Shown here one piece after another: positions 2,517 through 64,000 of a stretch of 64,000 bases of DNA (position 1 is the stretch's first letter; every line of letters begins with the position of its first letter). The notes beneath the pieces were generated by a model that was not told where the DNA came from, did no database searches, and saw only the letters and a list, made by a program, of their open reading frames with translations. Source of the DNA: Rhodamnia argentea (Eukaryota; Streptophyta; Magnoliopsida; Myrtales; Myrtaceae); the NCBI RefSeq assembly GCF_020921035.1, contig NC_063155.1, positions 27,707,294-27,771,293 of the forward strand, read 5' to 3'. The translations under genes were made by a program, and so were the position numbers.

Positions 2517-2670
2517 TTCTTTTGTAAGGAAAGTAAATTGATTTTTTTAAATTTTTTTCTTTTACAAAAAAAGTTCACAAGTTTTGCCAAGGAGAGATTT
2601 TCGTAATAAGCATTCTTTAAGTTAATAAACTTACGTGTGAAATGAAAATTTGTGTCATGCTATATGAATA

Positions 2671-5968: not shown

Positions 5969-6870
5969 TTATATCCGGCTCATTAAGTAAAAGATCGCAA
6001 CTTCAAGCACCTCAACATCTTCAAATGTGTCAAATGCATCTCCGCCAATATCCCATAGCTTGGTCTTTCCTTCTAAATATTGTGGATTTTTTGTTAATAG
6101 AAGATAAATGTTGCTATGAATGAAAATCAAATCTTCCACATGTCTCGGGGTCATCTTATTTCTTCTCGCCGAGTGCATAGAGAAGTTAGTACTCCAATTC
6201 CTCTCGGCACATGATAAAGAAGAAGGTTGTGCAAGAAACTTTAAGGTTACGCTTTGAAGCATAGGTGCACATGCACCATGATGAATCCGCCATGCCTTAG
6301 GTTCCATAGAATACCAATTCTAAATGGAATCAAGTTTTTTTTTTTTTTTGGTAAAAAATGGAATCAAGTTGAAAACCCCCACTTTTGCACGCAAAATCTA
6401 CATACTCCACATTCACCTTGTGGCACTTATTCTTGTTAGGAAAATATTTCCTAAAGCATTTCTTCCTTTCTTGGTTGATCTCATAACCCTTGTATGGAGA
6501 AACTTGAGCGGGATCCTCGTTGAGTCATTGATTACTATAGTACCTTATTGAACAAAATAAAATAAGTAAGAGGAGTACATAACATCGTGTCAAAGAAAGA
6601 ATATCCAATATAATGGTAATTTCGTATAAGTTTAGAACTTACCTAAGATTCAAGGTATGTGCCAAGTAATGAAGTGGAGTGTTGTTCCTAGTCCAACGAT
6701 CCACGAGAATTGCATAAACCACCTCGGAAAATATAGACTCCTCATCTAGCCTTTACACTTCATGCATATATGTAACTCTTTTCACTTTTCTAATCATCGA
6801 ATCCTACATAACATAAACCAATTGAAGACAAGGCTTGTCCATGTCAAGGTCGTGACGTTCTAGGCTCGCC
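5969..6870 (-). pseudogene. hAT transposase relic, middle and C-terminal dimerisation part
   Basis: Read on the minus strand from 6870 down: DMDKPCLQLVYVM, a stop where tryptophan is expected, DSMIRKVK, then EVVYAILVDRWTRNN and TPLHYLAHTLN (about 6720-6645), EDPAQVSPYKGYEINQERKK (from 6518 down) and CFRKYFPN. The open C-terminal stretch 6307-5969 contains CERNWST-like AERNWSTNFSMHSARRNK, then TKLWDIGGDAFD. This is the dimerisation signature of hAT transposases. Frameshifts and a 22-bp insertion at 6335-6356 break the frame between the blocks. No functional protein can be made. Confidence 0.85.
6322..6369 (-). mobile_element. Micro-insertion with 13-bp target duplication
   Basis: The 13-mer AAATGGAATCAAG occurs at 6322-6334 and again at 6357-6369. 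Between them lie 16 T and GGTAAA; on the minus strand this reads TTTACC followed by 16 A. The structure is that of an extremely short A-tailed retroposed fragment inserted in the hAT coding relic. A slippage or repair event is the alternative. See the similar cases at 13264, 20772, 33700 and 45545. Confidence 0.6.
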
Positions 6871-13263: not shown

Positions 13264-13311
13264 ATTTTTACGTGGATTTTGACCCAAAAAAAAAAGTATT
13301 TTTACGTGGAT
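13264..13311 (+). mobile_element. Micro-insertion with 14-bp target duplication (GACCC-A10)
   Basis: The 14-mer ATTTTTACGTGGAT occurs at 13264-13277 and again, perfectly, at 13298-13311. The 20 bases between read TTTGACCC, ten A, GT. The GACCC-A(n) core recurs at 20789 and 33713 in the same type of setting. This looks like a very short A-tailed retroposed fragment. Confidence 0.6.
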
Positions 13312-13689
13312 GATGAAAATAATTCTCAATTTTTTTTGTTTTTGTAAGAGATCCAAGCAATTATTTTTAAAAAAAAAAAATTGTCCAAATCTTGAATTTT
13401 TCATGAAATAAACGCACTCTTGGCATATATTTATCTTTCGGGATAAAGGGATGCGTGTGAAGAAAAGTAGTGACGAATTTTTTAAATTTGCTAAAGAATT
13501 AAATGATGTTCAAGTATCTGATTATCAAAATTTCGGAAAGAGGAGGAGGAATTCATACAAATGACTATTGTCAATTTCGGACAAGGGCGTATAGTTACAA
13601 AATCCTACTATATTGGGCCCAGCCCGGCCCGGCCCAGGCCCGTATTTTTCCCCCAGGTATAGGCGGGCCTGGCGATGTCTTACGCTTCA

Positions 13690-13710
13690 GATCGATCGAT
13701 CGATCGATCT
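13690..13710. repeat. GATC tetranucleotide microsatellite
   Basis: Five consecutive GATC units within the region upstream of the aldolase gene, about 300 bp before the start codon. Confidence 0.85.
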
Positions 13711-13890
13711 GGGTCGGCCCATTGATCACCTGTGCAATGCAGGACAGGAGTTGAAGAACAAGTGATGATTTGGTCGGATGTTAGAGCGCGGACAGGAAAC
13801 GGAGAATAGCAACAGCGGACCGTTTGGTAAGCTACGCACGCGAGGCCGTCCCTTTCACAGACTGCGGATTCCACGAGAAAGGCATCCCTT

Positions 13891-13900
13891 TTATTATAAG
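13891..13900 (+). promoter_or_regulatory. Candidate TATA box of the aldolase gene
   Basis: TTATTATAAG lies about 115 bp before the aldolase ATG at 14013 and is followed by a CT-rich leader (TCTGTCTCTCTCTCTC near 13950). That spacing would put transcription start near 13925. Inferred from sequence only. Confidence 0.4.
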
Positions 13901-14012
13901 CCCGCCTTCGTATACCTCACCAACCAACCCCACTTCCTCTTCTGTCGATCTGTCTCTCTCTCTCTAGAATTCCTGTGTGTGTGGGTGTGTGTGTGTGTTG
14001 AAGAGAAAGGAA

Positions 14013-14186
14013 ATGGCCTGCTCTAGCTTCGCCAAGCTCAACGCCTCCTCCTCCCAGTGGATCGGCCAGCAGTCCTTCGCTCAGCGACCCGGATCTTCCT
14101 CCCCTCGCCTCCCCGCTCGGCGCGTCTCCCTCCCGATCCGCGCCTGTGCTTACTCCGACGAGCTAGTCCAGACCGCCGTCAGTTCC

Positions 14187-14243
<57 letters not shown>

Positions 14244-17200
14244 TCGATCGGTTGGGTGTGTTTTGGACTATTGATTGGTTCGTGCTCACTGTTTGCATGC
14301 GGGTTTGATGTCGGATTTTGGTTTGGGATCTCTGACTATGAGGTTTGAGAGCTTTGGATAGCTTGATCGATCCTTTGTCGAACGCTTGAATCTTACTTGT
14401 TTTGATCGTTCACCGGTGGAGTGGTCCCGGGGTCGATAATTGCTTGAAGTTCCATGGACACGGAAGTGCAAGTTGAATTGACTTCTATCGGGCCAGGAGA
14501 TAGCTATTGATTGTTGATCTCGTGTTGAATATCTCCATTCTTTTGGTTTGTCAGCTTTGTCTCAAATGGAGGGCGGACCCCCTTCGGTCCGATTGTTTGC
14601 ATTCATAAAAATAAAACGTGGCCTACCTTCAACTTTGTTCGGATCAGAGATGATCCTTCCTGAGGAAACTCTCCTCGTGACAGATAATGAAAACCAATGT
14701 TGTGCCGGTGCGCACATGGAATGGATGAACATAGCGTGTCCTTGTTTTTCTTTCGTCTTTGGGATCCCAATCACAGGATTTCTCCCACTAAAGTTACTTT
14801 GGCCCAAAACAGCCAACTCTGTGGAGTGTTTCAAATTCCTTCTGTCGTCCCCCCTGGGGAGGTGTACCTTAAAATTTTAAACTTCATAAGCTTCTTATCC
14901 TAAATGTCCTCTCAATCTTGCGTCTGTTTGTTTGGAGTTATGAGATTGAGTTTTGCCGTATAGCAGCTCCACATTTTATAATCTGAATATTTCCTTATGT
15001 TGGATGATTATAAGAGCATATGACAAGCCCAAACATTTTCCCGTATATCTGATTTTGCAATAGAATACAACTGTATATTTGCATGCATACTCTGCGCCAA
15101 GTGCTTGCATTGGCCTGCATAGATGTGTGCTTGCAAGAGAGAGTGACCCTGTCAAGTAATTCTTTCCCCAAGTTGACAGTTGAAACATCATTTACTCACA
15201 GTGGGATTTTATTGAAAGTAGATCTTTCTAAACATATTCTATCAGTCCAGTGAGCTTTTCTTGGTTCATCATGCACAGAAATCCATTGCATCTCCTGGTC
15301 GTGGTATCCTTGCCATTGATGAGTCAAATGCAACCTGTGGGAAAAGGTTAGCATCCATCGGGTTGGACAATACTGAGGTCAATCGTCAAGCTTATAGACA
15401 ACTTCTGTTGACCACTCCCGGTCTGGGTGAGTACATCTCTGGTGCCATTTTGTTTGAGGAGACACTTTACCAATCAACAACAGATGGCAAGAAATTTGTG
15501 GACTGCTTGCGTGAGGAGAAAATTGTTCCAGGCATTAAAGTTGACAAGGTTTGCTTTGAGAGGTCCTTCCTGAATGTGTATGCTTCAAATAGAAACGGTC
15601 ATCGTCAATGTGCTTATTAGTAGTATCCTCTCTTTGTCCAAAGGGTTTGGTTCCTCTTCCTGGATCCAATAATGAATCCTGGTGCCAAGGCTTGGATGGA
15701 TTGGCTTCAAGGTCAGCTGAATACTACAAGCAAGGTGCTCGTTTTGCCAAATGGTGAGTCAGCTTGTGCTCCAATTTGTTCATTAAGATGTTACTTTCAG
15801 CCTTTCTTTAATTTCTCCCCGTGAATAAAAGTCCATAAAATATCTCATGCCATGACTTATAACTAATCTGTTTGCCATTGCTGAAGCTACGTGATTGCTT
15901 TACACTTGTGTTGATTAACCTTTAATTCTTAAATTATTATGCAGGAGGACAGTGGTTAGCATTCCTTGTGGTCCCTCTGCTCTTGCAGTAAAAGAAGCTG
16001 CATGGGGACTTGCACGATATGCTGCCATTTCTCAGGTAAGTCGTCAACTTAAGATGCCTTTGTTCTCATTTTACGAACTGTTTTTGGTGCAAGAACTAAA
16101 TAAAGTGCTTCTTGATCATTGTTTTTATTTTGGAACTGAAATGTGAACTGACCAACAGTTCAATAATATGTCCAAATTTATGCCTGCATGACTTGTCAGC
16201 TCTATTTGGTCCTTGAAAATCCTTCCTTCCTTCCTTTTTTTTTTTTTTTTTTGGTGATGCCTTTGACTTAAAAATAGAGTAAAATACTATTTTAGATTAT
16301 TATTTTACTTAGATTTTCAGATAGGCTGCAATTTTCCGATTCAGTAAGCATCCGTCTCAAAGGTTTTAGGTACACTGCTTTCATATCTGGCATCCCTTAG
16401 TTGTTATATATTGTCTAATTTGCAGGATAATGGCCTTGTGCCTATTGTTGAACCTGAGATTCTTCTTGATGGAGACCACCCCATTGAGAGGACTCTCGAA
16501 GTGGCAGAGAAGGTTTGGTCTGAGGTCTTTTTCTATTTGGCTGAGAACAATGTTATGTTTGAGGGTATCCTGCTTAAACCCAGCATGGTAACTCCTGGAG
16601 CTGAGCATAAGGAGAAGGCTTCTCCTGAGACAATTGCCAAGTACACTCTTACAATGTTGAGAAGGAGAGTTCCTCCTGCTGTTCCAGGAATCATGGTATG
16701 GACATGTTAACATTTGTACATCTTTACAGCCTATTGTAGTGCATATAAGCCTAAGAATTTAGTGGGCTGGTCGCATGTTGTCATTCATTCTTATTCTAAT
16801 GTTGGATGGCTTTTCTTGTTGATGTTTCCTTTTTGGGGTACGTGATGCATACAGAAGGTTCTGCTAAAATAGGTACCAATTTATGAAATCGAGGGTAAGT
16901 TTGGGCATTTAACTATAGATGTACTTAGATCAGACGGATTCTTATGAATATATGGTGGTAATCGTGGTTGTTGGGGAGGTTAGCATGATAGCAGGTACTT
17001 GCATTGTTATGATCAGAGAGCATCAATTCCAACAGAACCTATTAATGTAGGCATCTTTTCTCTATGTTTCCAGTTTTTGTCAGGAGGACAATCTGAAGTT
17101 GAAGCCACCCTGAATCTTAACTCCATGAACCAGAGCCCCAACCCTTGGCACGTTTCCTTCTCGTATGCACGAGCGCTTCAGAATACCGTGCTGAAGACAT

Positions 17201-17352
17201 GGCAAGGACGTCCTGAGAATATCGAAGCTGCACAAAAGTCACTGTTGGTGCGTGCCAAAGCAAACTCGTTGGCTCAACTTGGAAGGTACTCTGCCGAGGG
17301 TGAAAGCGAGGAAGCAAAGAAAGGGATGTTTGTAAAAGGCTACACATACTAA
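14013..17352 (+). CDS. FBA3: Fructose-bisphosphate aldolase, plastid (class I, FBA3-like)
   Basis: Class I aldolase, interconverting fructose-1,6-bisphosphate with dihydroxyacetone phosphate and glyceraldehyde-3-phosphate in the plastid stroma. Exons: 14013-14177, 15279-15548, 15644-15753, 15945-16035, 16426-16695, 17074-17352. They sum to 1185 nt (394 aa plus stop), the usual length for plastid isoforms. The N-terminus is Ser/Arg-rich and lacks acidic residues ([18 protein letters not shown]), as expected of a transit peptide. Family motifs present are [34 protein letters not shown] and GILLKPSM, with Lys263 the Schiff-base lysine by family alignment; [16 protein letters not shown] and the C-terminal GMFVKGYTY are also present. 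All introns are GT-AG. Intron 1 opens with a (TC)25 tract. The wording [19 protein letters not shown] and [19 protein letters not shown] is closer to Arabidopsis FBA3 than to the leaf isoforms FBA1/2, from memory of those proteins. Confidence 0.95.
14191..14240. repeat. (TC)25 microsatellite at the start of aldolase intron 1
   Basis: Uninterrupted TC dinucleotides beginning 13 bp downstream of the intron 1 donor (14178). Likely length-polymorphic. Confidence 0.95.
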
Positions 17353-19041
17353 GCCCCCAAATTCAGAGCAACTTTGGTACGATAGGACCTCACTTCAGTT
17401 GAAGTCTTTTGTTGTCTTTTCTTCATTTATTTTTTCTGTTAAATGAGGATTCATGAGTGTTTTGGGTCCTTGCCTTAGTGCCTCCTGCTTCCAAATAATA
17501 CCGGTGAGAAAGGAAATAGTTCCTGAACGGTAATTAGGAGAGTGATGTAATAGTGAAAGCAAGACAGACGTAAGTGTATGGATCGATAAAAAAAAGGTTT
17601 AGAAAGACTTGATTTCTAAATGACATTGTAAGCATTCATAGGATACTTTCAATATGCTGGATTTTATGGGTGGACAGATACAATATGTCGATCAATTAGG
17701 TCATGTTTATTGTCATGTTGCCATTATCATGCAAGTTTCAGCAAGCGTTTCATGCATTTTCCTTGGAATGAAGTTCATCCTCTAGAACAAACCATGACCC
17801 CCAATTTATGCTCCCAACGGTTTTTTTTCCCACCCTTGCTTAGTTTTTTTTAAGGAAATATATACGAGTCATTTTACTACTACAATAGATGGAGATGATG
17901 TAAATACCACCCTTTGAAAGCTCATTTTGTTCACGCGAATAGAAAAAATCTAATTTTGTATATTGAGTTTCTAATTTTGAGTTTAGTACGAGTTAAGATA
18001 ACAGGCCCGAAAAGCCCACCATTCACAGCCCTACTGGTGATGGTCCAACCCTTTCTGTCTTTTCATTATCTGATAGGTATGCTATGACAACTTAATTTGC
18101 TCAGTGTCTGCTATCATTCTACACCATAAAGGTCCCACAGCAGATTTTGCTCCTCGTCGTTCACTTAGGAGACACTATCTAGCGCAGAAAGAGTGTTTGT
18201 CTGAAGTCCTAGCTTTGACCAAATCTACATTGGTTGGGGGGTGCAGTTCCTTTAACTCTCATTTCTGGTTGAATTGTTCTGTAGTTGATCATTCTAGCAA
18301 TAATTAGCACCGTAATAGGTCGTGGTGTGATTCAATCGCCTCGGTTTCGAAGTGAACATAAACTTAACTTCTAATATTCAATCATCTCGATTTCATTTCC
18401 CATCATCTTTCTGCTTGGAAGGATGAATTGAGGTTCCAATTCGTATGTTACTATCCTATTTATCGGTCAAGTCGATGACTTCATTTTGACATTTCGAGAG
18501 CGCACACATGAGAAGAATGGCGACAACGACGGATAGATCATAGCCTGTCAATCAGCTGAAGTTAATCTTGAGCCAGATATCACACGACTCAAAAACCAAG
18601 TCATGAATTCTTAAATCCTCTAGTTTTGGAATCTATAGAGGACCAGCTCTGGAGGGGTCTCTGACTCTTTTAACCTTAGACTAGACCTTCTCGCGGCGTG
18701 TCTTGTCTTCTAAGGCACAGCTTCTCGATTCTCATATGTTCTCCGAATCTAACCTGAACAAACTCCAATGCAACAATAATCAAAATAATTTCATATCATA
18801 TGATAGAAATACTTTCTTTTTGCTAGTTTCAAATTTGCAATCTGATCGCTCCATTCAATGGATCAGCCATGACAATTCGAGTGACTGTTACTTAATACTA
18901 ATCATATTATAACACGGCCATTAATGTACGGGACCACATCGGATGCCACTAGAAAGTCGTAGCTTCTATATAACTCAGAGTATATTAGGATACTGCGTGG
19001 TGCTTAGGGCAACCACATTGGTCATATCTCATTTAATGGAG
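17353..19041. other. Aldolase 3' flank and gene-free stretch
   Basis: The first about 250 bp should be the aldolase 3' UTR; AATGAGGATTC and AATAATACC are possible but weak polyadenylation contexts. The rest has no recognisable gene. The short plus-strand ORF 18104-18307 has no family motif. Confidence 0.45.
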
Positions 19042-19486
19042 AAAATTACCAAAAAAGGTCCTAAACCTTTTGCATTTTTGGCAATTCAGTCCGAAACCTT
19101 TTAAATTTTCCGATTCAATCTTGAACATTTTCACCTTTTCCCGATGCAGTCCTATTGGCCGGAAATCGCTGAGTCGTTCCACATGACACCGCCGATGCTG
19201 ACATGGATAAATTATAATAATTTTTTAATAAATTTATATAAATTATGTTCCTTTTTTTTTATTCAAGTTTTGAAGGCTGGCTGTCAAATTTTTTGTAATA
19301 TTATTACAATTTTGTTATAATTTGTCAACGTCGGCGCCAGCTGTGTCGCATCGGCGATTTCAGGTTAATAGGATTGAATCCGGAAAAAGTGAAAAGGTTT
19401 ATGATTGAATCGGCAAACTTAAAAGGATGAGGTTTGAATTGGCAAAAATACGAAAGGTTTAGGACTTTTTTATGACAATTTTCACC
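19042..19486. repeat. Fold-back (long inverted repeat) non-autonomous element
   Basis: The left end begins GAAAATTACC and the reverse complement of the right end begins GTGAAAATTGTC. Both are followed by copies of AAAGTCCTAAACCTTT, then TTTTTGCCAATTCA and TTGCCGATTCAATC-like phrases, and the arms stay alignable for about 150 bp into CGGCG-containing inner parts. The centre is AT-rich (about 19200-19320). No coding capacity. Target duplications were not resolved. Confidence 0.75.
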
Positions 19487-20099
19487 ATGTAATAAGAACG
19501 AAAATTTTAATTACTATTATCGTCGATCAAAAGATTAGGGTCCGCGAAATTGTCTTCATTGCCACACTGACATTGGTAACAATTGAAACGCACTTATTAA
19601 CTCGGACAAAGGACAATCTCGATGTCGCGAAATACCAAAAAGTTAAAAAAAAAAAAAATCAACGCCCAAATATTCGAATAATTTTCATATTTACCGCGCA
19701 AATAGAAAGACATGGACAGTGGACACCACAAAGTTCTTCTGAGAATAACCACGAAGCGTCAAGTGGAACAAAATACGGTGCGTTTCGGGAAGACCCATTG
19801 ACCCCAAAAACCATGTGAAGATGCGCTTTCGTCGTCGAGCTATTCGCCATTGCAATGCTTTTAACTATTGAGATTTTGCATAGAGAGAAAGGTCCTTTGA
19901 CTTAAACACATAATTAAGCACTTTAATTATGATTAGCAACTTTGAAATGGGAACGGGGGAGGAGAGAATCACCAAAGGAAGCTTTGAGGGCAATCAAGGA
20001 GGGTGAATGCCTAACAAGGATGGGCGGCTGTGCGAGGAGACCACGGTGAGATCTAGCTCACCTGAAGTCACGCGCGACCCCACTTTTTGCCGGACCAAT
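19487..20099. other. Gene-free stretch
   Basis: No recognisable gene. A 63-codon minus-strand ORF (19659-19850) has no motif I can place. A G+C-rich patch begins near 20000. Confidence 0.4.
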
Positions 20100-20420
20100 G
20101 CCGGTGCCCTAGGGGGTGCCAAATGGACCCGTGGGCCCGTTGACCGGCCCGGAACCGGCCCATTGACCGGGCCCACGGTTCCAACCGGGTTTTAAAAAAA
20201 AAAAAAAAAAAGAGGAGTAGGTTTGATAAAAAGAGTAATTGGGCTTTGGAACCGGCGGTTCCGAACCGGAACCGGAACCGGCCCGGAACAGGCGGTTCCA
20301 AACCCGGAACCGGAACCGGCTCTTCAAGGGCCGGTTCTGGTTCCACCTTTTTTTGGAACCGGAACCGGCGGTTCCGTTGAACCGGCCCCCTCTACGGTGC
20401 CCCCATCTCTCTCTGTCTCT
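20100..20420. repeat. GGAACC-type low-complexity tract
   Basis: Dense imperfect repeats of GGAACC/GGTTCC and CCGGAACCGG in both orientations, with a 19-A run near 20193-20211 and a (CT)n run near 20405-20432. Tracts of this composition occur as subterminal repeats of plant hAT elements, but no transposon ends were identified. ORFs over it encode PEPEPA/GTGTG-like dipeptide repeats and are artefacts. Confidence 0.7.
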
Positions 20421-22714
20421 CTCTCTCTCTAGTGCACGCACCTTGATCTCATCGGCTCACATTGCTACGACATCTCCATCGACTTCGAAGGCATAGTTGG
20501 CAGCGGCGGTGGCGGCGAGCATCAGCCAACCACCTAGCTCTCTCTCTCCGTTTGTACTATGGTGGTCTGGGCGAGTTAGGGTTACGGGAGACAAAATCGG
20601 AAGAATAATAAGCTTGTGAGGGTCAGATAGGAACCCAATGATTCAATTGACGCCCTAACCCGACGTTTTGAAAATATTGCAAAGTCAAAATTAGCGGGCA
20701 CTTTGCTTTGGGCTTTGAGCCCCGCCGAGGCAAGTTTGAGGCTAAAGTGTCTTCGAAAAAAGGCTCCACGTAATGTAAAAGTACTTTTTTGGACCCAAAA
20801 AAAAAAAAATGTAAAAGTACTTTTGGACGCCCATGGCAACACTTATGCTTTTGAGCAGTAATTTTTTTTTTCACTCCTTCAAGTGACTTTAAAATTAATT
20901 TTGAAGCAAAAAAATACTTTAGAAATAGAAAAATAAAGTTGCGTCACCAAATAAATTTCTACTCTAGAAATACTTCTAGAAAAGAAATTCTCCTCCATAA
21001 ATGATGTCATGTGCGCCTACCCAAAATCATTGGACAAAATTTTCGGGAAACATACTTTTGACCCATGATACTATGGCCTAAAACGTGTTTAAGACCGAAA
21101 AAGTAACTTTCAATAAGAAGCCAAACAGTTCGGTTGAACATCTAGGTCTCATTTATTGCGAAATATTCGTTCTTTTCTTTTGCTGTGGATAAGAGATGGC
21201 AAAATGAGCTTAAAATTCATATTTTAATTCATATTTAATCAAGTGGGTCATAATTAGATTGCCTATAATTCTAGAAATAAGCTTAAGTGGGTCATAAATA
21301 AACTTTAAATTGGTCGCAAATTGGTTAACTAACCATCTTAAGTGAGTCACAAACAAGTTTTATGATTTTTTATTTTATAATTTTTTTTATTTTTTCTTCT
21401 TTCTTCTATGAAATCTGACCGGTCGTCCGTCGCCGGCGGCAGGTCGACAATCGGCGGAGGAAAAAGGAAATCCAGCGATTTCCTAGAAAAAAAGAACAAA
21501 TATAAAAAAAAAATTATGACAAACTAGTTTTTTTTTAAATTGGATTAATTATAAAAATATTTTATCAATATGAATTAGGTCAGGTATGAATATAAATTTG
21601 TATTGCATGAAATGAGTTAAAACAAGTTAACCGGGTCGAAAATATTGTCGATCCGACCAAGACCAACATATTGGACTAGGTCTACTGTCGATAAAATCAC
21701 TTAAGAGATCGATACTTTCCCCCTTATAAAGGCTCGCAAGGTGAATCGGTCACCGCTGTAACCCATGTGTAGATGAAAACGATGCCAACTTTGGAAATGA
21801 GGGGGACCAGGATGTTGGAAACTACACACGATGTGGAGCAAGTGTCAGAACGACAATACATTTGTTTGGAAGGTTTTGTTTGTTTTCTCCCACGATCCTA
21901 TTTAATAAATATATATTTTTTTAAATTTTTCTGTTGTCTACATTTATATCTGAGGCCAGAGACTGCTGGGGCTTTGGAGCACGACCCCACGTGTTCGATC
22001 TTCTCCTCATCTTTCAACGAGCATCAGGGGCATGCAAGATGGGATTGCGATCGTTGTTCGCATACGAGGACATTGATTACGTGACCATACCTGTGTCCCC
22101 CCCACCCGCACAGCTGGAGATCATACGCATTCCGTCTCCCGATTGGGCGAAATGATTCGCTGTTTTGTAAACTGTCCCACGTCGACGTTGCATAAACTGC
22201 TTTCCGGATTTAATTAAGGGCCCTTTCGTTTGACGGAGAATTTCTCGTTTTTTTCCGTTGTCGGTGATGTAGCTCGACATGAGAAGGGGAAAAACATTTT
22301 TCGGAATGTCCGGTACAGTGTTTTGACAAGATATTCCCCGTTGTATACAAAGAGTTGTGCGTGTTTTCTGTGAAGTTATGTTGTAGGTCTTCGAGAGCAA
22401 TGCACGAGTGACAGAGAGAGCAGTCGCTCGAATCCTCGGCCAGATTAGTCTCGCACAGTATCTCGTCGTGTGGATAACGCTTTCCTCTTTAGCCTCCGTT
22501 TCTGGAAAATAATTTTCGAAAAAGTCATTTTTAAAGAAAATGATTATATTTTATGGGTGTTCGTTGAAATCTAAAGACGAATTGGAAATTAATTTTTCGT
22601 TGTTTGAAAAGGAAAGATTTGATTCTATTTTCCCAAACAAACATGCATTGTTCGCATGATATAAGAGATATCAAACTACCGAGATTCCAGTTGCATAATG
22701 GGTAATTTTTTTTT
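20421..22714. other. Gene-free stretch with repeat debris
   Basis: Contains the micro-insertion at 20772-20824 and an AT-rich patch at about 21190-21660 in which short phrases (AAGTGGGTCATAA, AAGTGAGTCACAAA) recur, likely another decayed non-autonomous element. The remainder, including the 100-codon ORFs near 21773-22400, shows no family motif on either strand. Confidence 0.4.
20772..20824 (+). mobile_element. Micro-insertion with 17-bp target duplication (GACCC-A11)
   Basis: The 17-mer AATGTAAAAGTACTTTT occurs at 20772-20788 and, perfectly, at 20808-20824. The 19 bases between read TTGGACCC plus eleven A. Same core as the inserts at 13278 and 33713. Confidence 0.65.
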
Positions 22715-24010
22715 TTGGCCCGGGCACGGGGAATTTAAGCATGGGGTGATGGGAATGCGGGCCGGGCTTTGATGGACTCGTGCCGGGGTGCCGGTGACTT
22801 GGGCATGGGAGCCGGGCACTCGGGCACTGTCCTATAGTCTTGGGTTTGGCCTCAAGAGACTTGTGCCCAGCCTTTGTGGACTCAGGCCTAATCATCGTGG
22901 ACCCGAGCATGGGTACTAGAGTCCTAAGCCCGTACTCTGTAACCCCGGGCTCAACCTTGATGGACTTGAGCGCCGAAGGTCCTAGCCTCGGGTGCCAATG
23001 GCGGGTGTGGAAGCTTCATGGCCACCGAAGACCCAAGCACAAGCATCGAGGACTTGGCCCGGCCTCCACGGATGCTGACGGGCCTCGATAGTCTTGGGCC
23101 TTGGTGCCAATGACTTGGGCACAAGAATAGTGTACTCGAACATGTGCACTAAGATCCCGAGCTTGGCCTATGTGGACTTGGGCAGAGCCCCGATAGACAT
23201 GGGCCCGGATGTCGAACTATGGTGTTTGGCCTAGCCTCTATGGAACCGGCCCAAGCGCCGCTAACTTGGTCGTGGAAGCTCGGTACCTATGGTTGTTGGG
23301 GGACCTAAGCACCCTACACAGAGGTCTCAAGCCCGGCCTCCGTGGACCCATGCCCGACCTTAATGGACCCAAGGCTAGGAGCTGGTGACATGGGTGTAGG
23401 AGCCGAATTCCCAAGCTTGGCTGTCAAGGAACCGGTCCTAGCCTTGATGGACTTGGGAGGGCTCGAGATCCATGCCCGACCTTAATGGACCCAAGGCTAG
23501 GAACCGGCGACATGGGTGTAGGAGCCGAATTCCCAAGCTTGGTTGTCAAGGAATCGGTCCCAGCCTTGATGGACGTGGGATTGGGAGTCGGGTACCCAAG
23601 CATCGAATGTGGACTTAGGCACGAGTATTAGGGTCTTGAGCATGACCGTTAAGGACTCGGGAATAGGCAATGATGTCTCGGGCTTGGCCCTTTGGACTCA
23701 AGCTTGGGTGCCGATAACTCGACGAAGGAGCCGGGTCTTGGGCTCGATATCGAGGGACCATGGCCTAGCCTCTATGGACCTGTGCCTAGCCATCGAGGAA
23801 CATGGCCCCGGCCTTTATTGGCCATGGTGCCAATGACTTCGGCGCAAGAGTCAAGTACCTCGGAGTGGTAGCTGTGCACTTGAGCACGGGGACCAATGTC
23901 TCAAGCCTAGCCTCTATAGACTCGGGCCAGGCCTCTTTCCTTGAGCTTGCTGTCGAGGACTCCGGCACAAGCGTCATGATTTCTACACACAAGCGCCAAG
24001 GTCATTGATT
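22715..24010. repeat. GC-rich degenerate tandem array (about 1.3 kb)
   Basis: The whole block is built from variants of two phrases, roughly CCTTGATGGACTTGGGC and GGTGCCGATGACTTGGGC, recurring every 30-60 bp on the plus strand with heavy drift. A larger unit of 122 bp is duplicated almost exactly at 23349-23470 and 23471-23592. ORFs through it (for example 22840-23091) only translate the repeat. The sharp base-composition change at both edges marks it off from the AT-rich flanks. Confidence 0.75.
23349..23592. repeat. 122-bp direct tandem repeat, two copies
   Basis: Copy 1 starts CATGCCCGACCTTAATGG at 23349 and copy 2 starts with the same bases at 23471. The copies share GACATGGGTGTAGGAGCCG and AATTCCCAAGCTTGG with few substitutions, so this is the most recent duplication within the array. 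Confidence 0.85.
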
Positions 24011-25789
24011 CAAGTGTCGATATCTAGTTATATTCTGAATCTAATTTTTGAAAGAGAAAATCATTTTCCCTAATTAAAGCACAGGTTTCGATTGACTATG
24101 AAAAAAATTATTTACTGGTTCATTTTTCTAAGCAATTTAAACATTGCAAAATGAGAAAAAAAAATTCAAGTTTTTTTTTTTTTTTTCGCAGAACAAGCAA
24201 AACCTTCATCAATTCAAAAAGTCAATTGCCACCTTTTGTGATGTGGCGATTCTCTAGACCAGGAAGTAGATTCAAGTTGACCTTTCATTTTCCATGTACC
24301 AAAAAAAAAAAAAATTCCGCTTTTCCCCCAAGAACCGATCTAATTTGCTATCGTTACTTCTAAGAGTGGAGTGTCAAGCCTATTCTCTAAAAGAATAACA
24401 TGCGTATGTTATTTCATGTGTTATGTTTTAAAGTTTAACATAATCGAAGAAATTTAGAGAATGTGAGTCAGCCCTTGCTTTTGCTTGAAGTTTTATCTTC
24501 GAACTTGGAAGGAGAACCTCTCGAGTTGGGATGATCCCCATTATCATCAAAACCTACTTTTGACTGAAATCAACTTCTCATAAGTCAAAAAGGTGCCCGA
24601 TCAAGATCTTCAGACAATCTTGACCACTTTTTCTGTTTTAAGAATCTCGTTCCGGCTCTTAGCAGTGGGAAAAATAACATCAATAATTTCTAAACTTTAA
24701 CCCGTATGATTTTTGAATTATTATTAAATACTCAATGCAGTCCATTTCATTAGTTCGAGTTAACGAAAATTTAGCGACTTGCCTTTCAATCCTTGTAGTT
24801 CTAAAACTAGGCGACCCGAAAGGAGGGAAATACTGATACAAAAGAACGTGGATAAGACAATTGCATTCATTGTCACATGTTCTCATATCTTGTTGACCGG
24901 TCATTTCAATAGTCCATCTCAGCATCGAATACTCGGTGTCATCAAATAACGTTTGACTAGCTGTTTGATTAAAAAAAAGAAACGGATTACTATTGACCCT
25001 TTAGGAATAATTCAAAATTCACGTGAAACAACTTAAAAATCCAAATATGACATTACAAATTAGGGGCAAAACTTAGGGAAGCTCAGCGCCATTCCCCTAC
25101 CCCCGATGAAATAATGCAGGCAATTATTCGATCCGCGAAACAAAAGGCTATAACCATTTAGGACCCCTTTTGCACACAAGTAAAAGGAAAAGTTGACAAG
25201 ACAAAAAGTTGTTCTTGTATCGGAACGGAACCCTTTTGTGAGCTGTGTACACGGAGAAAGGAGATGCTGACCCTAGCGAAGGCCCAAAATAAAAGAGAAA
25301 GGATTCGATTTGGACACGCAATAAGCTCCAATAGCTGGATCTACACATTCGTTCATGCTTCCAACGACTCTTGACCCCTTCTTCATTTGACACTTCACAT
25401 TTAGTATGTGAACGGTTCGGTCCGGTCCGATTCGATTTTTCAAGAAATTCGGACCAACCCTATCCGTTAAGGTGAGGATTGAACCAAATCGAACCGATCT
25501 GTTAGGAGACTTGTACCCTCCTTGCATACTAGGGTTGTTCATAAGTTTGGTTTTATATTCACAAGATTGCAGCAGCAGCTTTGCGTCTTTTGCTCTCCGG
25601 ATGATGGATGTACTTTCATCTCTTTTATTACGTTGGGGTTCGTACAATTGTGGTGTTTGACATTTCATTTTCGTGTTGAACCGACTGCAATTATAGAGTA
25701 CGCCTGCTCGATTGGCCCGATTTGGACCATACAAGCAAGTACACTCGGATACACGTCGACATGATCGGTTACTGTCTTCCTTTTTCTTT
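24011..25789. other. Gene-free stretch
   Basis: AT-rich sequence with poly-A/T tracts near 24152-24186 and 24300-24314. A tract near 25409-25500 contains GGTTCGGTCCGGTCCG on one side and GAACCAAATCGAACCG on the other, again resembling hAT subterminal sequence. The 153-codon minus-strand ORF at 25273-25734 runs through that tract and has no recognisable domain. Confidence 0.4.
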
Positions 25790-26480
25790 TGAAAGGGGAT
25801 CAGTACCGTAAAAAAAAAACCCTCAATTTTAACTCAAATTCTAGTTTTATTCTAAACTTTATTTTATCTTATAAAAATTTTCAAACTTCAAGTTCAATCT
25901 CAATTTTACCCTAAATCAATTTTTTGTTTGATAAAAAAATCATAAACCTTTATTTGAGTCTTATATTTTCCATGTTAACCCTTTGTTCAAAATCGCACTT
26001 AGTGATCTTACGTGGCATTTTCACATCATTGTCCTAGTTTGTATCCAAATTTCAGATATAGGAAGACGTCTTTTAGATATGAGTTTCCATGTCAACCCAA
26101 AACGATGTATTTTTTGACATGAAATGTGGGCGAAAAGCTAGAGCAATTAGGGTTGATTTCCTTCAATTGTTTTTAGTCTTAAGAGAGTCTTCTTTCCCTC
26201 TCGGTTTAGAATTTATGATTTTAAGCTCAATCTTTGATCTCTTGTGCTTGAAAGTCTTCCATCTCTTGCGGCCGGAGAGCTCGCTCTTGGGACACTTGGT
26301 TTAGGATGCTCGAACAACTCTTGTTTGGAAGCTTTCTATCTCTCGATTGTCGACGGAAAGATTTTGGAGGAGGATTAATGCTAGCAGATTTAGGACTCAA
26401 GTAAAAGTTGATGATTTTTTACGAGACAAAAAAATTTAGGGTAGAAATGAGATTGGATCTAAAGTTAAAGATTTATTTTT
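25790..26480. repeat. Probable non-autonomous element with inverted arms
   Basis: The left arm (about 25815-25980) has repeated phrases of the type TCAATTTTACCCTAAATC, ATAAAAATTTTCAAACTT and TTTATTTGAGTC. The reverse complement of the right end (26400-26480) reads TCATTTCTACCCTAAATTT followed by TCGTAAAAAATCATC, matching the left arm. No coding content was recognised in the middle. Confidence 0.5.
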
Positions 26481-27390
26481 TAGAACATTAGGCCTTTGAA
26501 AAGGTGAGGACATACGAGTGTAATGGGTCAAGTGTGATTTGAGATGAATGAAATGCTAATGTAATGCTGAGGCCCGAACAGACCGGCCCTAGTTTTTTTG
26601 AGCTCAAATAGTGCGAAGTCGAGCCACTCAGCCTAAAACTATCTTCAAGTTCCGAGTCAAGAGTCATGCAAAAATAAATCCGTTTAGGCTTGGGGAGGTC
26701 TATTACATATAAATAAATGCGAGAAAGAGAAAATTGATCAATGCCGGAAGAAAGAGACGGGATCTTATTTTGTTTGTCCCGTATCAAATTATCCTCTCTC
26801 TAATTTGCCTCTTTGTAGAGCGTAACAATTGAACTTCGTACTTATGATGTTAGCGTCCCTACCTCTCAATCTCTTTATCAGTAGGATCGTATAGCTATCG
26901 GCAAAGAGATGGGATTGGAGAGGTAAAATTGATGATCGATTTTACGTCCGTAAGGCAATTGGATGATCATAAGAAAATCAGAATCAGATGGCACCCAAGA
27001 GCATAATAAAGGAGAGAAGCGAATCATCGCCGAATGATGCCGTAATTACGCCAGCAACGGGAGGGCATTTTCGGGACCCGACCCGGACAGCTCCTCCAGT
27101 CCCAGTGTGCCTGCGGTCCGTCCTTGGAAACGTCTTCAAATCTCTCTTTGACCGTCGTACGCAATCTCTCTCTCCCCGAGAAGAACCTTTTTAAATATGT
27201 CGCGAGCATGAATGCGAAAATCAATTAATGGAATCAGTAATGATCGCCTCTCTCGCACGACCCTTTTTAGCCGCTGTTGCAGGGACACACGGGACGGACT
27301 CTCTCTGTCTCTCTCTCTCGACCTTTTCAATCACTGTCATCATCGTCATCATCTGATTTTTAAAGCTTTCCTTGCCTCAGATTCTCCAGA
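26481..27390. other. Upstream region of the PSS1 gene
   Basis: No gene recognised. Contains CT-rich stretches near 27165-27180 and 27298-27322. The last few hundred bases are presumably promoter of the phosphatidylserine synthase gene. Confidence 0.45.
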
Positions 27391-27398
27391 TATAAATA
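27391..27398 (+). promoter_or_regulatory. Candidate TATA box of the PSS1 gene
   Basis: TATAAATA lies just upstream of the G+C- and CT-rich leader exon (about 27420-27685) of the phosphatidylserine synthase gene. Confidence 0.45.
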
Positions 27399-27480
27399 AT
27401 TTCTGGATGCAGGGCGAAAAGGGTGTGTCCATCTTCTAGTTCTTGGCTCTCCTCAACTCGCACTTCCTCTGATGCATTGA

Positions 27481-27678
27481 ATGCTCCGCCACTTCATTAA
27501 TCAGCGCGGGCGCCCGAGCGCACAAGAGTCTCGAGGACCGATCAACCGTCGCGGCGGCGGCCGTGGCGGTTCCCCTTCGCGCCGTCTCTACGATCGGACC
27601 GCCCAGATCTTCTCGTCTGCGATCGTACGACCCAGGGATCCTCTGTCAGCCCGTCCCTTCTCTGTCTCTCTCTCTTAA
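27481..27678 (+). other. Possible 65-codon upstream ORF in the PSS1 leader
   Basis: An ATG-initiated frame of 65 codons lies entirely inside the inferred non-coding first exon of PSS1. It ends with TAA at 27676-27678, eight bases before the donor CTAC|GTAAGT at 27685/27686. The translation is Arg/Ser-rich (MLRHFINQRGRPSAQ...). If transcription starts near 27420 it would precede the main ORF in the mature mRNA. Whether it is translated is unknown. Confidence 0.35.
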
Positions 27679-29528
27679 TCTCTACGTAAGTCTTGCCTCA
27701 GTATCTTTACCTACTTCCCCTTTTGGGTCATCGTTTTTATGGACCCTCTTCGTGTTTTTCCGTTTTTGGCCTCAGCTCTCTCTTGTGCTGTGCTGTGTTG
27801 TGTTGTGTCGTCGTTGCTCAATGTTCTCGCGACTTTCATTTTCGTTTTTTTCTCTAATCACTGAGTGAAAGAGACGCAGATAATGAAATCTTCTGGCATC
27901 TCTGTTCATATCTTCCCCTCGTTATTGCTTCTCTATTAAGCTTAATCCTTCACGTGTTTCATTTATATTTTTTTCCGGCTCGGAAAGGTCGTCTCTTTCG
28001 TGTGCATGTTGATACCCACTGCTCTCCTCTTCTTTTCTGATTGTTGTAAGATTATTCTCGCTTGGAGTTATTGTATAAGTCAGAGTGGGGCCGACCGATT
28101 CGCATTTATTTGGTGTTGGTCTTTAATGAATACCTGTAGATCCCAATTATCAAAGGTTTTCCGTACTCTTTTCTGGTAATGGTAAGCCATCTTAATTCGA
28201 AATAGTTGGTAGTGTTTGGTAGTTGCACAGTGGCTAGATGCCTTCCAGGTTTTATCTTGTAGGGATGCGAATTGTAGGAAAACCATCCCTTTTTGTGGGA
28301 CTGTGATTCCTATGTATTAGCCCAAGTTATTTTTTTTTTCTTGGTTAATCGAAAGATAAAGAAAACACGGCACGGAACTTGGGTGATGGTTGTTGCAAAC
28401 ACTTTGTTAAGAAAAATGAATTAACAAATAACTTTGGCGAAATTCCTGGTGTATCTCAATTTCCTGAAATCAGAGTATAGAATTCCAACGTTTTCTTTTT
28501 TAGGTGAAGTTGGTTATGTTTTTGTATTTGCTAGTCAATATTGATTTGGATTTCTATTTATTAATTTTTTTTTCACTCGAAGAATGAATGCACAACATAT
28601 TGAAGCTGTACCTGATATTGCGGATGCTTCTTAGAATCTATGCTTTTAAAGGTTTTGAGATAGATGTTCATCATATTCTTCTTAACTTGCTGAATTTAGA
28701 TAGATACAAAATGCAAAGTCCGGGTTAAGCAAGCAAGGTATAATTGCTTTGTTGGAAAGTTGAGTAGCTTTTTTTAATGGTATTGTGGTCACTTTGTAGC
28801 TATAGCAGCACGTAGAATTCTTCAATGTCGGAAACTTTGTTTCAATGGGTGCTTATATCATTGGAGTGTTGCTGAATGTAAGTGCATTATCTGGGGCAAC
28901 CTGTAGGGGTCCATAAAAGTATTTGGGATGTGGTGGATTTAAAGATCAGAAATCCCATGTACTTTTTTACCTGCAGATGTTCTTTCTTTTTTTTTTTTGG
29001 GCGCGGGGGTGGGGACGGAGATGCTCTTGAAAGATTACTGCATATTGTGATGAGCACTTAATGGAACTAAGAATTGCAATCTACACGTTACAGTACATTT
29101 CTCACAGGCCAAAAAGTGATTACTTTATCTTGTGTTGGGAAAATCTGAGAAGTGATCATTTTTGCTATGCCTTTTTTTTTTTTATCTGGGTTGAAAAGGG
29201 TGGGGGGAAGATCAGCTTTTTGCGTGGAAAGACGGTGTCGGGACTAATTTAATCATAGACTCACTTTTTACTACGGGCAGATGTTAATATGGTGCATGCG
29301 TTTGTTTCTTCTGGACAGCACTAATTTTTAAGGATGTTACATTCGCTATGGTTGGCTCTAATTAGTTGTTGGGAGAACAGTGTTTCTTCTTTAATTTAAT
29401 TACCGAGCTTTCCTTGGGTGGTCTTCTGATTGTAGTTTTATACGATCTTTATTCTCTTGGAACTAGCAGTTTCGTGTCTGATTTTTTATGTCCTTATCAT
29501 CTTCCATGATTTGCAGTTACTACATCTT

Positions 29529-29549
29529 ATGAGCTATGGAGCCTCATGA
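29529..29549 (+). other. Six-codon upstream ORF overlapping the PSS1 start
   Basis: ATG AGC TAT GGA GCC TCA TGA begins 7 bases before the main ATG (29536) in another frame and ends inside the coding region, so ribosomes initiating here would bypass or reinitiate near the main start. Confidence 0.6.
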
Positions 29550-32500
29550 TCATAGAAGACAAAAGAGACAGAATACTCTTTTGCTTTCAAATGGCGATGG
29601 CATTGTGACTACGGTTGATGAATTAGATCCTTGGACTGCATGGGCATACAAGCCACGGACCATATCCCTCTTACTTATTGGAGCATGTTTTCTGATGTAA
29701 GCATATACTGACTGGCAACCGTAGTTCAGATGATACGCAAGCTTATGTTGAGTTTCTTCCATATGGCTATCATTGAACGAAAGACTCTCTTCCTTTAAAC
29801 TGCGATGTGTTTCTGGTTCACATTAATGTTTAAGTGAATGTGAACTACGGCCAAAAAAATGGAAAAAAAGTGGGTGTATTCTGCAATCTGTTTCTTTATT
29901 CCTTGTGGTGGCATTGTCAGACCTGATTGCTTTCTATGCTGTGCATTGCGTAACCTATCTTAGGAACTGGAAAAAGATTTGATGATATTTCTTTAACTGA
30001 TAGGAACATATGATTTATTGACCTTTTTTTGGGCTAATGGAATTTGGTACTGAAAGTGTTGTAATGTAAATTAAACTATACTTGAGCTGTTGGTTAACAT
30101 CCAAAGTTGAAATATATTATGTCCAGATGGGCAAGTGGAGCTCTTGATCCAGAAAGCAGTGAATCTGGTGATGTCGTCACATCTGTGAAAAGGTGCACTA
30201 TCATGTTTTACCTCGAATGCTTCATGTTATATTTAATTTAGTTCGCCCATCAAGAATTATCCTTTTAATGCCTTTACTTTGGTTGTTTATTGAAGGGGTG
30301 TATGGGCCATGATTGCGGTGTTTCTAGCTTATTGCTTGCTGCAAGCCCCTTCCACGTAAGTCTTTTTGTTATTCACTTACATTTAACCAGTGGTTTGTCT
30401 CTCTTTCTCATTTTGTGCACGTACTTTGCTTACGGGTATAGGAAATTAGTCTATGTTGTTTTATATATATTCCTGACCTCTGGAGAATAAAAGAGATTAA
30501 ATCGTCATCTTATTCACTTCTTCAGAACTAAAATGGAGGGACATGACAGAATGAATGAGGGAATGAAGTTTTAGAATGGAAGGAGGAAGTGGATAGAGTC
30601 TTAACTACGATTCTTTTGTATGGTTGTGATTGTGATGCCATAGCTCGCCACATTGCTTAAATGGTTGCATCTTGACTTGTTGAGTAAATGCAGAATATAA
30701 GTCAATCCTTCAAAATAGAGAAGTGGATTGCGCGACAACAGATATGATCATTCTTGCAAAGTTTGCCACCTCAATTTAGTGTACTTACAATTTTCGTTGT
30801 TCTTGTATTTACCTTTGCAATGAGCTTGGGGCTTTTTTTTATAGGTATCATTGGCAGATTATAGTGATATCGTGCAATGTTTTTGAATGATGGGTTTAAG
30901 AATGGAGAATGGGATTGTGTGACAGTCATGGCTCGTGATAAGTGTTAATGCCTTTGGTTTACCAGTTCTTGTTTGGTTTCTAGCACATTCTGATCTTCTA
31001 ATGGCTTATGGTCAGATTAAGCTGCTTTTGTGCGTCTAATTTTCAGTTTCTGTTTGTGGTTTTATCCAACTTTCGCTTTCTGCTGCAATAGTTAGGGTCT
31101 GTCTAACTTTCACCTATCTGCTGCATTATGCAGGATCCTCATTAGGCCTCATCCTGCAATTTGGCGCCTAGTCCATGGCATGGCTGTTATTTACCTTGTT
31201 TCTCTCACATTCTTGCTTTTTCAGGTTGGTTCCCGTGTAGCCAGCCATTTTCATAACTACTCTCTCTGGCCAAGTCTACCTTTCTTTTTCCTGTTTTGTG
31301 ATTATTTTATTGTTACTTCTGGCTAAGTCTACCTTGCTCTTTTTTTTTTCCTGGTTGACGGAGGTTTTATTCTCTATTTATATTTTTTTGGGGATTTGTG
31401 ATTTGGGTCATTGAGGCAAATATTCAGGAAAACTTTAAGGAACTTCAACTAGTCACCATCAAGTATTCTACTGAATATCTATTTCGGCATATGATTGTCT
31501 GCATGTGCTTTCTCAAAGCTTTTTTAATGTCCTATCTGACATTCTGACTAAGATATTCATGCTCGGGGTACTCTGAAGTCTTAAAAGACCTTGTTTGCTA
31601 CTTATCTCTGCCATAACCAGAGGTGCTTAACTGACATCATATTGCAATATGTTCCAGAAGCGTGATGATGCTCGACAATTCATGAAGTTTCTCCATCCTG
31701 ACCTGGGTGTTGGTAACGATTTCACCAGACCTACTTTCATGATGCATTAGTTAGACCTTTAAGTGTTCTTGTGTTGATGCAGTATAGTATGAAAAATTCA
31801 GTTCTTACATTAATACGGTTGGTTGGACTTGGACTGAGTGTTCGAACTTTGCAGAACTTCCTGAACGATCATACGGAGCTGACTGCAGGATTTATCTGCC
31901 AGAAAATCCTACGAGCAGGTTTAAGAATGTTTATGTATGATTTCTTCCTGAATGGTTATTTTATCTTCCCTTGCTTTAAGTCTTATCTTAGGGAACGCCT
32001 ATCTGATTGTTTTCCTTAATTTCATTCCTTTTCCAGGATACACTGTTTGATGAATTCGTGCTTGCCCACATCTTTGGCTGGTGGGGAAAAGCGATATTGA
32101 TTCGTAATCAGCCACTTCTGTGGGTGCTTTCAGTTGGATTTGAGTTCATGGAGGTTTGGCTTTTGGCTTCATGTGTATGCTTATGTGCTTGCAAGCATGT
32201 GAATGCCCCCTCTTGTGTTTGTCTACAGTTGCGGAATGTTTCCTGTTCTCTACTTATAATTAGACTCTTGTTTTCCTCAATAAGTTGCTTTCCTCTTTGG
32301 TTTCAGCTCACGTTTCGTCACATGTTACCCAACTTCAACGAGTGCTGGTGGGACAGCATTATTCTGGATATATTAATATGCAACTGGTTTGGTCAGTTTT
32401 TCCCTTCCCTTTCTTAGGTTTTCTATGAGTTTCCTCCAGTGGATCCTTGTAGTTTAATAATTACTATATGTGTGCATGTAATGATGTATAAATTGGTCTT

Positions 32501-33221
32501 GTAAAAGCGGTTCTACCTATTTTCTTGATTTTATCTGACAGGATTTGTCTGCTTGGATAATTTGTTAAGCTTTGTCACAAATGTACTGGCTTATTTGTAT
32601 GATTGTGTAGCTCCTGTATCATTTGTGTTACAGAGACTGTCATTGCCTTGCTTCATGACAAGCATTGTATAATTAACATGCTTCATGAATTATATTAGTC
32701 AAATTTCTAACGGGTCTTTGGCGATGTCACGTCTTGACTTTTGTCACAATTGACGGTTATACATGCTTCATGAATTATATTAGTCACATTTCTAATGGGT
32801 CTTCAGCGATGTCATGTCTTGACTTTTGTCACAATTGACGGATTAACTGCGCGAAGGAACTTTTTGATTCTTAGTTAAGTTTTTGGTGACTATTTTTCTG
32901 CTTCAACTTTCAGGTATTTGGGCTGGAATGCATACTGTCAGGTATTTCGATGGGAAGACATATGAATGGGTTGGTATAAGTCAACAGCCTAATGTCATAG
33001 GGAAGGTGTGGCTCTGAATCTGACAGAGTAATTTACAGCTTGGACATTGTAATCTATTCCTCATTTTCGTGAATTGATATTAACTATTCATTTTGCAATT
33101 CAAGGATAAAAGTCATAAGCATGATAAATGGATGCATCTGAAGAATCTCTACATCGGATTTTACAGTTCCAGAAAAGAAAATTTTCTTCAGGCAATCCTT
33201 GTATATATAATATGCATGTTG

Positions 33222-33298
<77 letters not shown>

Positions 33299-34126
33299 TG
33301 TGTGAGTGGATTAGTTGAGGAGGGTCATTTGAGTCATGCGGCTTCGTTTTCCATTTGATTTTTTCTCTGGTAAAGTAGTCTAAGGATTGAAAGTTAGGAT
33401 TATCTTTAAAATCAACTCCTCTTCCAAACTTAATGTCTCCCAAACCAAAACCCATGAAAATAACTGTAAAACAAAATAACCAGGACTCAGTTTCATCCAT
33501 AGTAAGCAGTGTATCACATGGCATCTGGTTGCTTGTTTCTGTCGGAGTAATCCCTGTCTTCCAGAGAATATATTGTATATGGGAATTTCAGGAACCTAGA
33601 ACCTTTTTTTTGCTATATCCACATCTTTCTTTCAAGTACCTGGTGTTGGTGCTTTTGCTCTCTTATCTTAGGCAAAAATGACTCGTCTACAGCCAGCTTA
33701 GATTGGTTCTTGTTTCGACCCAAAAAAGAAAAAGAAAAAGAGATTGGTTCTTGCGACACTGTGTCTCTGAACTCTTAAAACTTTATACTTGGTTAACTTA
33801 ATGTGTCTCTGCATGCCACTTTTATGCTCTTAATGGGCGGCTGAGCTTTGCTTTTCAGGTTAAACGGACATTGGGACAATTCACCCCAGCTCAGTGGGAC
33901 AAAGACGAGTGGCACCCCCTGCTTGGTCCATGGCGTTTCATTCAAGTTCTTAGTCTCTGTGTAGTCTTCTTGACGGTGGAGCTGAACACATTCTTTCTCA
34001 AGTTCTGTCTGTGGGTTCCTCCTAGGAACCCGATCATAGTGTATAGGTTGATCCTATGGTGGCTCATTGCAATCCCCACAATCCGTGAATACAATTCATA
34101 TCTCCAGGACAGGTCTCTCTCTCTCT

Positions 34127-44854: not shown

Positions 44855-44931
44855 ATGCCAACGCGTTACGTGTCTCTGCCACTCTGTCTCGCTCTTTATC
44901 TTGAGCACTTAGCTAGACATTCATTCAGGTT

Positions 44932-44945
44932 ATATTATAAATATT
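44932..44945 (-). promoter_or_regulatory. Candidate TATA box of MATE gene 1
   Basis: On the minus strand a TATTTATAATATA run lies about 80-90 bp upstream of the ATG at 44854. Confidence 0.35.
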
Positions 44946-44952
44946 CCATGTG

Positions 44953-50862: not shown

Positions 50863-50892
50863 GGAGAGAAGACCAAAGATTAGAGAAGGGAA

Positions 50893-50916
50893 CAGCAGCA
50901 GCAGCAGCAGCAGCAG
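50893..50916 (-). repeat. (CTG)n microsatellite in the MATE gene 2 leader
   Basis: Eight trinucleotide units (CAG on the plus strand, CTG in the transcript sense) begin about 31 bp upstream of the ATG at 50862 and are probably in the 5' UTR. Confidence 0.85.

Positions 50917-61715: not shown

Positions 61716-64000
<2,285 letters not shown>

Follow-up and report, generated by a model that had tools for sequence, protein, structure and literature searches.

How does an element of about eight bases come to stand, with its own A tail and between target duplications, at place after place in a plant genome? The question is raised by a 64,000-nucleotide stretch of the Rhodamnia argentea genome (contig NC_063155.1, positions 27,707,294 to 27,771,293; hereafter the window), in which the initial annotation had reported three micro-insertions sharing a GACCC core followed by A residues. 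It gave their positions, their cores and perfect flanking repeats of 14, 17 and 13 bp, and all of these proved exact; the three insertions are called sites A, B and C here (Table 1). It also read them as products of target-primed reverse transcription, in which the RNA of a short or long interspersed nuclear element (SINE or LINE) had been copied as its last bases. The duplications, the A tails, the AA at which the duplications start and the match of the cores to LINE 3′ ends all fit that claim. The inserts are very probably stubs of L1-clade LINEs, left when target-primed reverse transcription copied the poly(A) tail plus 7–9 nt and then stopped.

On both strands of the window, GACCC followed by at least six A residues occurs at sites A, B and C only, and all three have a poly(A) or A-rich 3′ tail, as the products of L1-clade LINEs do. 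With a tail of at least three A residues, seven GACCC sites are found; the four besides A–C have A3 or A4, and their best repeats measure 0, 6, 9 (AAGAGAGAG, 46 nt off) and 0 bp. A scan of the window for any A-tailed insert added two clear cases with other cores, site D (TTTACC) and site E (ATGTGTT); the core of site E has no match among the LINE ends found in the genome. Close repeats at a score of at least 9 numbered 10 on the plus strand and 4 on the minus strand of the window, some of them tandem or of low complexity; no such repeat was found in three first-order Markov sequences of window length, for each of which a single strand was scanned.

The initial annotation expected the core to be enriched over chance, and it is. 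Across the 346.66-Mb assembly, GACCCA9 occurs 1,782 times versus 57 times for the reversed control (31-fold), and the sister core TTCGACCA9 occurs 1,238 times versus 11 for its control; candidate sites that have one of these two main 3′ ends and a tail of at least A9 number about three thousand genome-wide. The A9 in the search pattern favours younger tails, and the A tail of the genome samples is itself part of the pattern. Two samples were read, namely the first 100 listed of the 1,782 GACCCA9 sites, all on C1 below 16.6 Mb, and 38 of 100 listed TTCGACC sites, also all on C1. Further cores came from a survey of A runs of at least seven residues in 264 kb, which comprised the window and twenty 10-kb loci. 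Close duplications at a score of at least 10 were found at 23 of the 456 runs that do not follow GACCC, versus 1.3 expected from shuffled flanks; part of these 23 are tandem or low-complexity repeats, and their density is a rough guide, because the 10-kb loci were picked around GACCC sites. The clean cores among them are TTCGACC, TTTCGACC, TTTACC, ACTTTACC, TTCTTTACCC and TTTGACCCC, plus CCGAT and ATGTGTT, to which no source is assigned.

To score target duplications, the right flank was aligned locally to the 28 nt that precede the core (cut-off score 8); this measure counts 2–5% chance matches and misses decayed duplications. A duplication near the insert, its left copy ending at most 28 nt from the core, was found at 61 of the 100 GACCCA9 sites; the controls gave 14 of 300 windows taken further upstream at these sites and 23 of 993 right flanks swapped from site to site. 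At TTCGACC sites, near duplications were found in 17 of 20 cases (swapped control, 4 of 380) and at 13 of 18 further sites scored without swapped control, giving 30 of 38 in total. The duplications at the 61 GACCC sites are 8–22 bp in length with a mode of 14, variable as for the products of L1-clade LINEs. An A-rich target start is the consensus of cutting by L1-type endonuclease; such a start was found here, the duplication beginning with AA in 50 of the 61 cases, and the base that precedes it is T in 25 and C in 19. Between the duplication and GACCC there are 0–5 bases at 55 sites, 7–9 at three and 15–18 at three (mode 3); TTC and TTG are the most frequent triplets before GACCC, followed by TCT, TTA and TTT in equal numbers.

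Because the 28-nt limit itself confines the length of the body, the 138 sites (100 GACCC and 38 TTCGACC) were rescanned with the search for the left copy widened to 120 nt upstream and the cut-off score set at 10; copies longer than 120 nt fall outside both length scans. Varying 5′ lengths had been predicted for these inserts, and this prediction did not hold. The inserts do not form an even series: among the 69 well-scored ones, 63 carry 5–12 nt of element, one carries 14 nt and five carry 24–56 nt. For GACCC, 44 of the 100 sites reached this score, and the element, including the core, measures 5–12 nt in 39 of them (8 nt being the commonest), 14 nt in one, and 24, 39, 43 and 44 nt in one each. 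For TTCGACC, 25 of the 38 sites reached it; the element is 6–12 nt in 24 of them (most commonly 7 nt) and 56 nt in one, L162, whose insert, judged by eye, resembles the LINE 3′ untranslated region (UTR). The same length peak had emerged from an earlier scan that covered 63 sites with the copy up to 110 nt away. The widely variable 5′ truncation of L1-clade LINE products was not found among the stubs, nor was open reading frame 2 (ORF2) with reverse transcriptase, as in an autonomous LINE copy; the stub bodies are far too short for it.

Both main cores were found at the 3′ ends of LINEs in the same genome, TTCGACC-A in L097 and GACCC-A in L117/L157, as the initial annotation had proposed. A LINE fragment adjoining the GACCC-A10 site of locus L016 has 31 matching places, ten of which were read onward; a 3′ end with an A tail was reached in five of the ten copies and in none of the other five. 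The L097 copy ends in TTTTCGACC-A11 (also given as ..TTTCTTTTCGACC-A11), L093 in TTTTCAACC-A15, both L094 and L098 in TTATGACC-A, and L095 in TTATGAC-A10. L095 and L098 have open frames whose matches to Pfam zf-RVT and RVT_3 exceed the curated cut-offs. L157, which lies upstream of the GACCC-A17 site of L117, contains a frame like the C-terminus of this LINE protein (17/67 identical, expect value (E) 7e-6 in a single comparison); the frame is followed by ..GTTTCGTTTCGACCC-A17, i.e. a GACCC-A end. No LINE-like frame was seen by eye in L158, upstream of L118. In the 130 nt preceding each of the 138 sites, matches to the fetched LINE copies that run over LINE sequence were found at L016 and L117 only; the remaining matches are to L089, by eye through a repeat downstream of its LINE, or are short or weak. 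The GACCC and TTCGACC cores are both 3′ ends of L1-type LINEs of this genome. The single source RNA that had been suggested therefore stands as far as the LINE tail is concerned and falls as to its number: at least two LINE 3′ ends are involved, and TTTACC, for which a LINE origin is likely, is likely another.

LINE stubs seem far commoner than recognisable LINE copies sharing the same 3′ ending. With one probe per LINE end, a 216-bp probe from the LINE 3′ end finishing in TTCGACC gave 15 matches, 10 of which extend at least to query position 214 and cover 54 nt or more; a 219-bp probe from the GACCC LINE gave 11 matches, 7 of which extend at least to position 213. Extrapolated from the 30 of 38 TTCGACC and 61 of 100 GACCC sites with near duplications on C1, about two thousand stubs with tails of at least A9 are expected genome-wide versus some tens of bodied copies, a ratio that gives the order of magnitude only, because the genome may contain further LINE families that end in the same way.

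The history of the insertions was approached through diverged paralogs within the genome, the joined flanks of 67 loci being compared with the fetched sequence. Six of the 67 loci have a diverged copy spanning the junction, and five were compared (L028 was left out). Joined flanks fit better than the filled site at L024 (234 versus 195), L011 (147 versus 139), site A (123 versus 101; paralog at about 3172–3299, minus strand) and L060 (70 versus 48). The diverged copies at these four loci thus favour the empty sites that the initial annotation anticipated; at the fifth, L136, two comparisons go the other way.

More than one stub was found at a single target at L034, L056, L099 and, less cleanly, L055. 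The inserts of L034 are separated by copies of AAGTAATGCCAAAATT; L056 has TTGGACCC and then TTTACC at one target, and L099 has TTGGACCC and then TTCGACC among three copies of AATCACCCTCTCC. Where the cores at one target differ, this argues for repeated insertion and not for the copying of a single insert. At 6 of 100 sites a second [GT]ACC-A6+ lies no more than 70 nt away on that strand, versus about 1.6 expected from the background rate. The serial stubs at L034, L055, L056 and L099 are a possible birth of small tandem repeats. By eye, L161 contains, upstream of its TTCGACC site, a further apparent opposite-strand TTTACC-A stub between GTCAGCAGAAAG copies.

The sites thus combine a short body, an A tail, a duplication with an AA start and cores that are LINE 3′ ends, and bodied-copy matches are few. 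In the mechanism that we propose, a LINE-type endonuclease would nick the T-rich bottom strand, in keeping with the AA at the start of the duplication, and reverse transcription would start in the poly(A) tail of the LINE RNA. The tail and the last 7–9 nt of the 3′ UTR would be copied before synthesis stops; a second-strand cut 8–22 bp away, with repair, would leave the target duplication around an insert of about 15–40 bp. The stop may mean that the reverse transcriptase aborts shortly after leaving the poly(A). Its distance is much alike from core to core, which suggests that the enzyme or the complex, rather than one RNA hairpin, sets it. Stalling of a ribosome at the stop codon of ORF2 was considered as the block and dropped, since by eye the distances from that codon to the stub boundary looked unequal. 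The A tail beside an AA-starting duplication may also rebuild the cutting site, which would explain the serial insertions at one target. A wider reading is possible, and we hold it only tentatively: L1-type LINEs may insert chiefly as dead stubs of near-fixed length, with a barrier 7–9 nt past the poly(A) that favours stubs by about 100:1 over bodied copies with the same 3′ end, the A tail rebuilding the cut site and serial stubs from different LINEs seeding a small tandem repeat.

Several observations weigh against the reading of these inserts as aborted LINE copies. Of the sites read, 39 of the 100 with GACCC and 8 of the 38 with TTCGACC have no clear near duplication; these may be decayed, longer or chance cases. 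The stop is strong, not absolute, as five of the 69 inserts, L162 included, carry 24–56 nt. By protein comparison, one GACCC copy alone (L117/L157) is tied to LINE coding sequence, and weakly; the tie at L016 is through DNA matches to LINE copies, and a Pfam search with two L016 fragments gave no LINE family and two sub-threshold matches. No LINE ending in TTTACC was found, and pieces of less than about 50 nt would escape the DNA probes for bodied copies. Among the four loci with a supporting paralog, L060 has a longer body of 20 nt. L136 was rejected as an empty-site case, since the filled form fits two paralogs better (joined 79 versus filled 103, and 82 versus 90). No hairpin common to nine folded LINE-like 3′ ends was found just before the stop; three of the nine (L012, L026 and L118) are not proven LINEs. 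A common hairpin as the block to the reverse transcriptase was rejected, nothing being constant at the stop in the nine.

The near-fixed 5′ boundary is shared by many targets and several cores, and a defined RNA end fits it as well as a stop of the reverse transcriptase does. The template itself may therefore be short, a 3′ fragment of LINE RNA, cut or separately made, with its 5′ end 7–9 nt before the poly(A), so that the enzyme runs off the end. However, to give the like boundary in TTTACC, TTCGACC and TTNGACCC, every one of the LINE RNAs would have to be cut in much the same place. We consider such a template unlikely, though a serious rival. We know of no such short LINE 3′ RNA. Another alternative is ordinary 5′ truncation by low processivity, under which the stubs would be the short tail of a continuous series. 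The five inserts of 24–56 nt agree with it; 5′ truncation is normal for LINEs, and plant L1 LINEs, which have poly(A) ends, leave copies truncated variously to 100–1,000 bp (PMC3747384, accessible part). For a poly(T) insert in human NF1, its authors considered that it might be an Alu, L1 or pseudogene in severely truncated form (PMC3219598, accessible part). However, 63 of the 69 inserts lie at 5–12 nt, with peaks at 8 nt (GACCC) and 7 nt (TTCGACC), and 15 matches to the LINE 3′-end probe face 1,238 TTCGACCA9 sites, so that ordinary truncation is an improbable source of the stubs.

Sources outside the LINEs have also to be weighed. A SINE that borrowed a LINE tail could leave similar stubs, and a transfer RNA (tRNA)-like SINE family with an A tail is present in the genome. 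Its 20 copies that were read, however, end in GGATTACC, GGATTATC or a GGATTAT-like sequence before the A residues, not in GACC(C). When the 130 nt ahead of each of the 138 sites were compared with these 20 copies, nothing beyond matches of 20 nt (E 0.01) and 28 nt (E 0.003) was obtained, and the 138 upstream stretches share no body ending at the core, which leaves a SINE origin very improbable. The stubs have no internal RNA polymerase III promoter or small-RNA-like head, their body being too short, and the window contains no tRNA and no Rfam match. At L016 (4367–4517) the SINE family is represented by a GC-rich insert of 151 bp, flanked by a 17-bp target duplication. Scores were obtained for 40 related places, and the 20 that were read reach beyond this insert on the upstream side and show, by eye, a stretch like box B. 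As a stub source the family was rejected, its 3′ ends being different. The 3′ end of 25S ribosomal RNA, considered for its resemblance, was rejected as well; it leaves the variable base before GACCC unexplained, and LINE 3′ ends fit better. The CCA ends of tRNAs were another candidate source that was dropped. Break repair or replication slippage would make of each site a small tandem duplication with an A-rich filler. Tandem duplications with filler have been described for plants, but filler would not carry one and the same LINE 3′ end at site after site, and the duplication begins with AA in 50 of 61 cases. Instead of filler without a common core, we found cores that are common to the sites and LINE-derived. 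The initial annotation had argued that filler would leave the common core unexplained, and the LINE-tail cores shared genome-wide bear it out; repair or slippage is scarcely credible here.

Table 1. Coordinates of the micro-insertions and their target duplications in the window
Feature	Positions	Strand	Basis
Site A, left target duplication, exact 14 bp	13264..13277	+	repeat comparison
Site A, stub insert TTTGACCC-A10-GT, 20 bp	13278..13297	+	between exact 14-bp repeats
Site A, right target duplication, 14 bp	13298..13311	+	repeat comparison
Site B, left target duplication, exact 17 bp	20772..20788	+	repeat comparison
Site B, stub insert TTGGACCC-A11, 19 bp	20789..20807	+	between exact 17-bp repeats
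Site B, right target duplication, 17 bp	20808..20824	+	repeat comparison
Site C, left target duplication, exact 13 bp	33700..33712	+	repeat comparison
Site C, stub insert TTTCGACCC plus interrupted A tail, 28 bp	33713..33740	+	between exact 13-bp repeats
Site C, right target duplication, 13 bp	33741..33753	+	repeat comparison
Site D, stub TTTACC-A13 with exact 15-bp duplications (6322-6336 / 6356-6370)	6322..6370	-	scan for A-tailed inserts between close repeats
Site E, micro-insert ATGTGTT-A16 with 14-bp duplications, one mismatch	45545..45595	+	same-type scan

Apart from these sites, the window contains an array of diverged tandem repeats of the GAACTTTCCCAAGTGCCTAGAAAAAATC type (1874–3545) and diverged direct repeats, some at 122-bp spacing (22795–23905). 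Exon-like frames at 38565–39014, 42900–54103 and 61716–62210 resemble, by eye, TatC, several MATE transporters and the mitochondrial ATP synthase beta subunit.

Because repeat annotation is blind to an element of 8 nt, it would record insertions of this kind as simple indels or as tandem duplications. Provided that the counts are right, standard tools miss most of the traces that LINE activity has left in this genome, and the stubs directly record the choice of cut site, the copying of the A tail and the stall point of the LINE reverse transcriptase. They make the step from initiation to elongation of target-primed reverse transcription testable from genome data; except at serially hit sites, they could also be used as presence/absence markers. 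Extreme truncation of retroposed elements is known as a rarity. A literature search, with subscription papers mostly outside its scope and as such weak evidence of absence, found no title on fixed-length LINE stubs as the main product in plants.

Like the insertions of flowering-plant L1-clade LINEs, the stubs have an A tail, a variable duplication, an AA-rich cut site and LINE 3′ terminal sequence. Different from those insertions, they have no coding body, and they carry a near-fixed 7–9 nt in place of a widely variable 5′ truncation. Like tRNA-derived SINEs, they are short, A-tailed and flanked by a target duplication, whereas they have neither the promoter nor the body of a SINE. One plant L1 lineage, ME1, has a conserved 3′ end that is stringently recognised (PMC3747384, accessible part). 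As in the LINEs described here, this conserved end lies by the poly(A) and has a CG-containing flank, CGAG in ME1 and CGACC here; the likeness does not assign a lineage, and ME1 is described with hairpins and SINE partners, not with stubs. No constant hairpin was seen in the nine LINE-like ends folded here. The human NF1 retroinsertion (PMC3219598, accessible part) is, like the stubs, a retroposed tail with almost no element; it is one event in one patient, whereas the Rhodamnia genome has about three thousand candidate sites with A9 or longer tails, which share two main 3′ ends.

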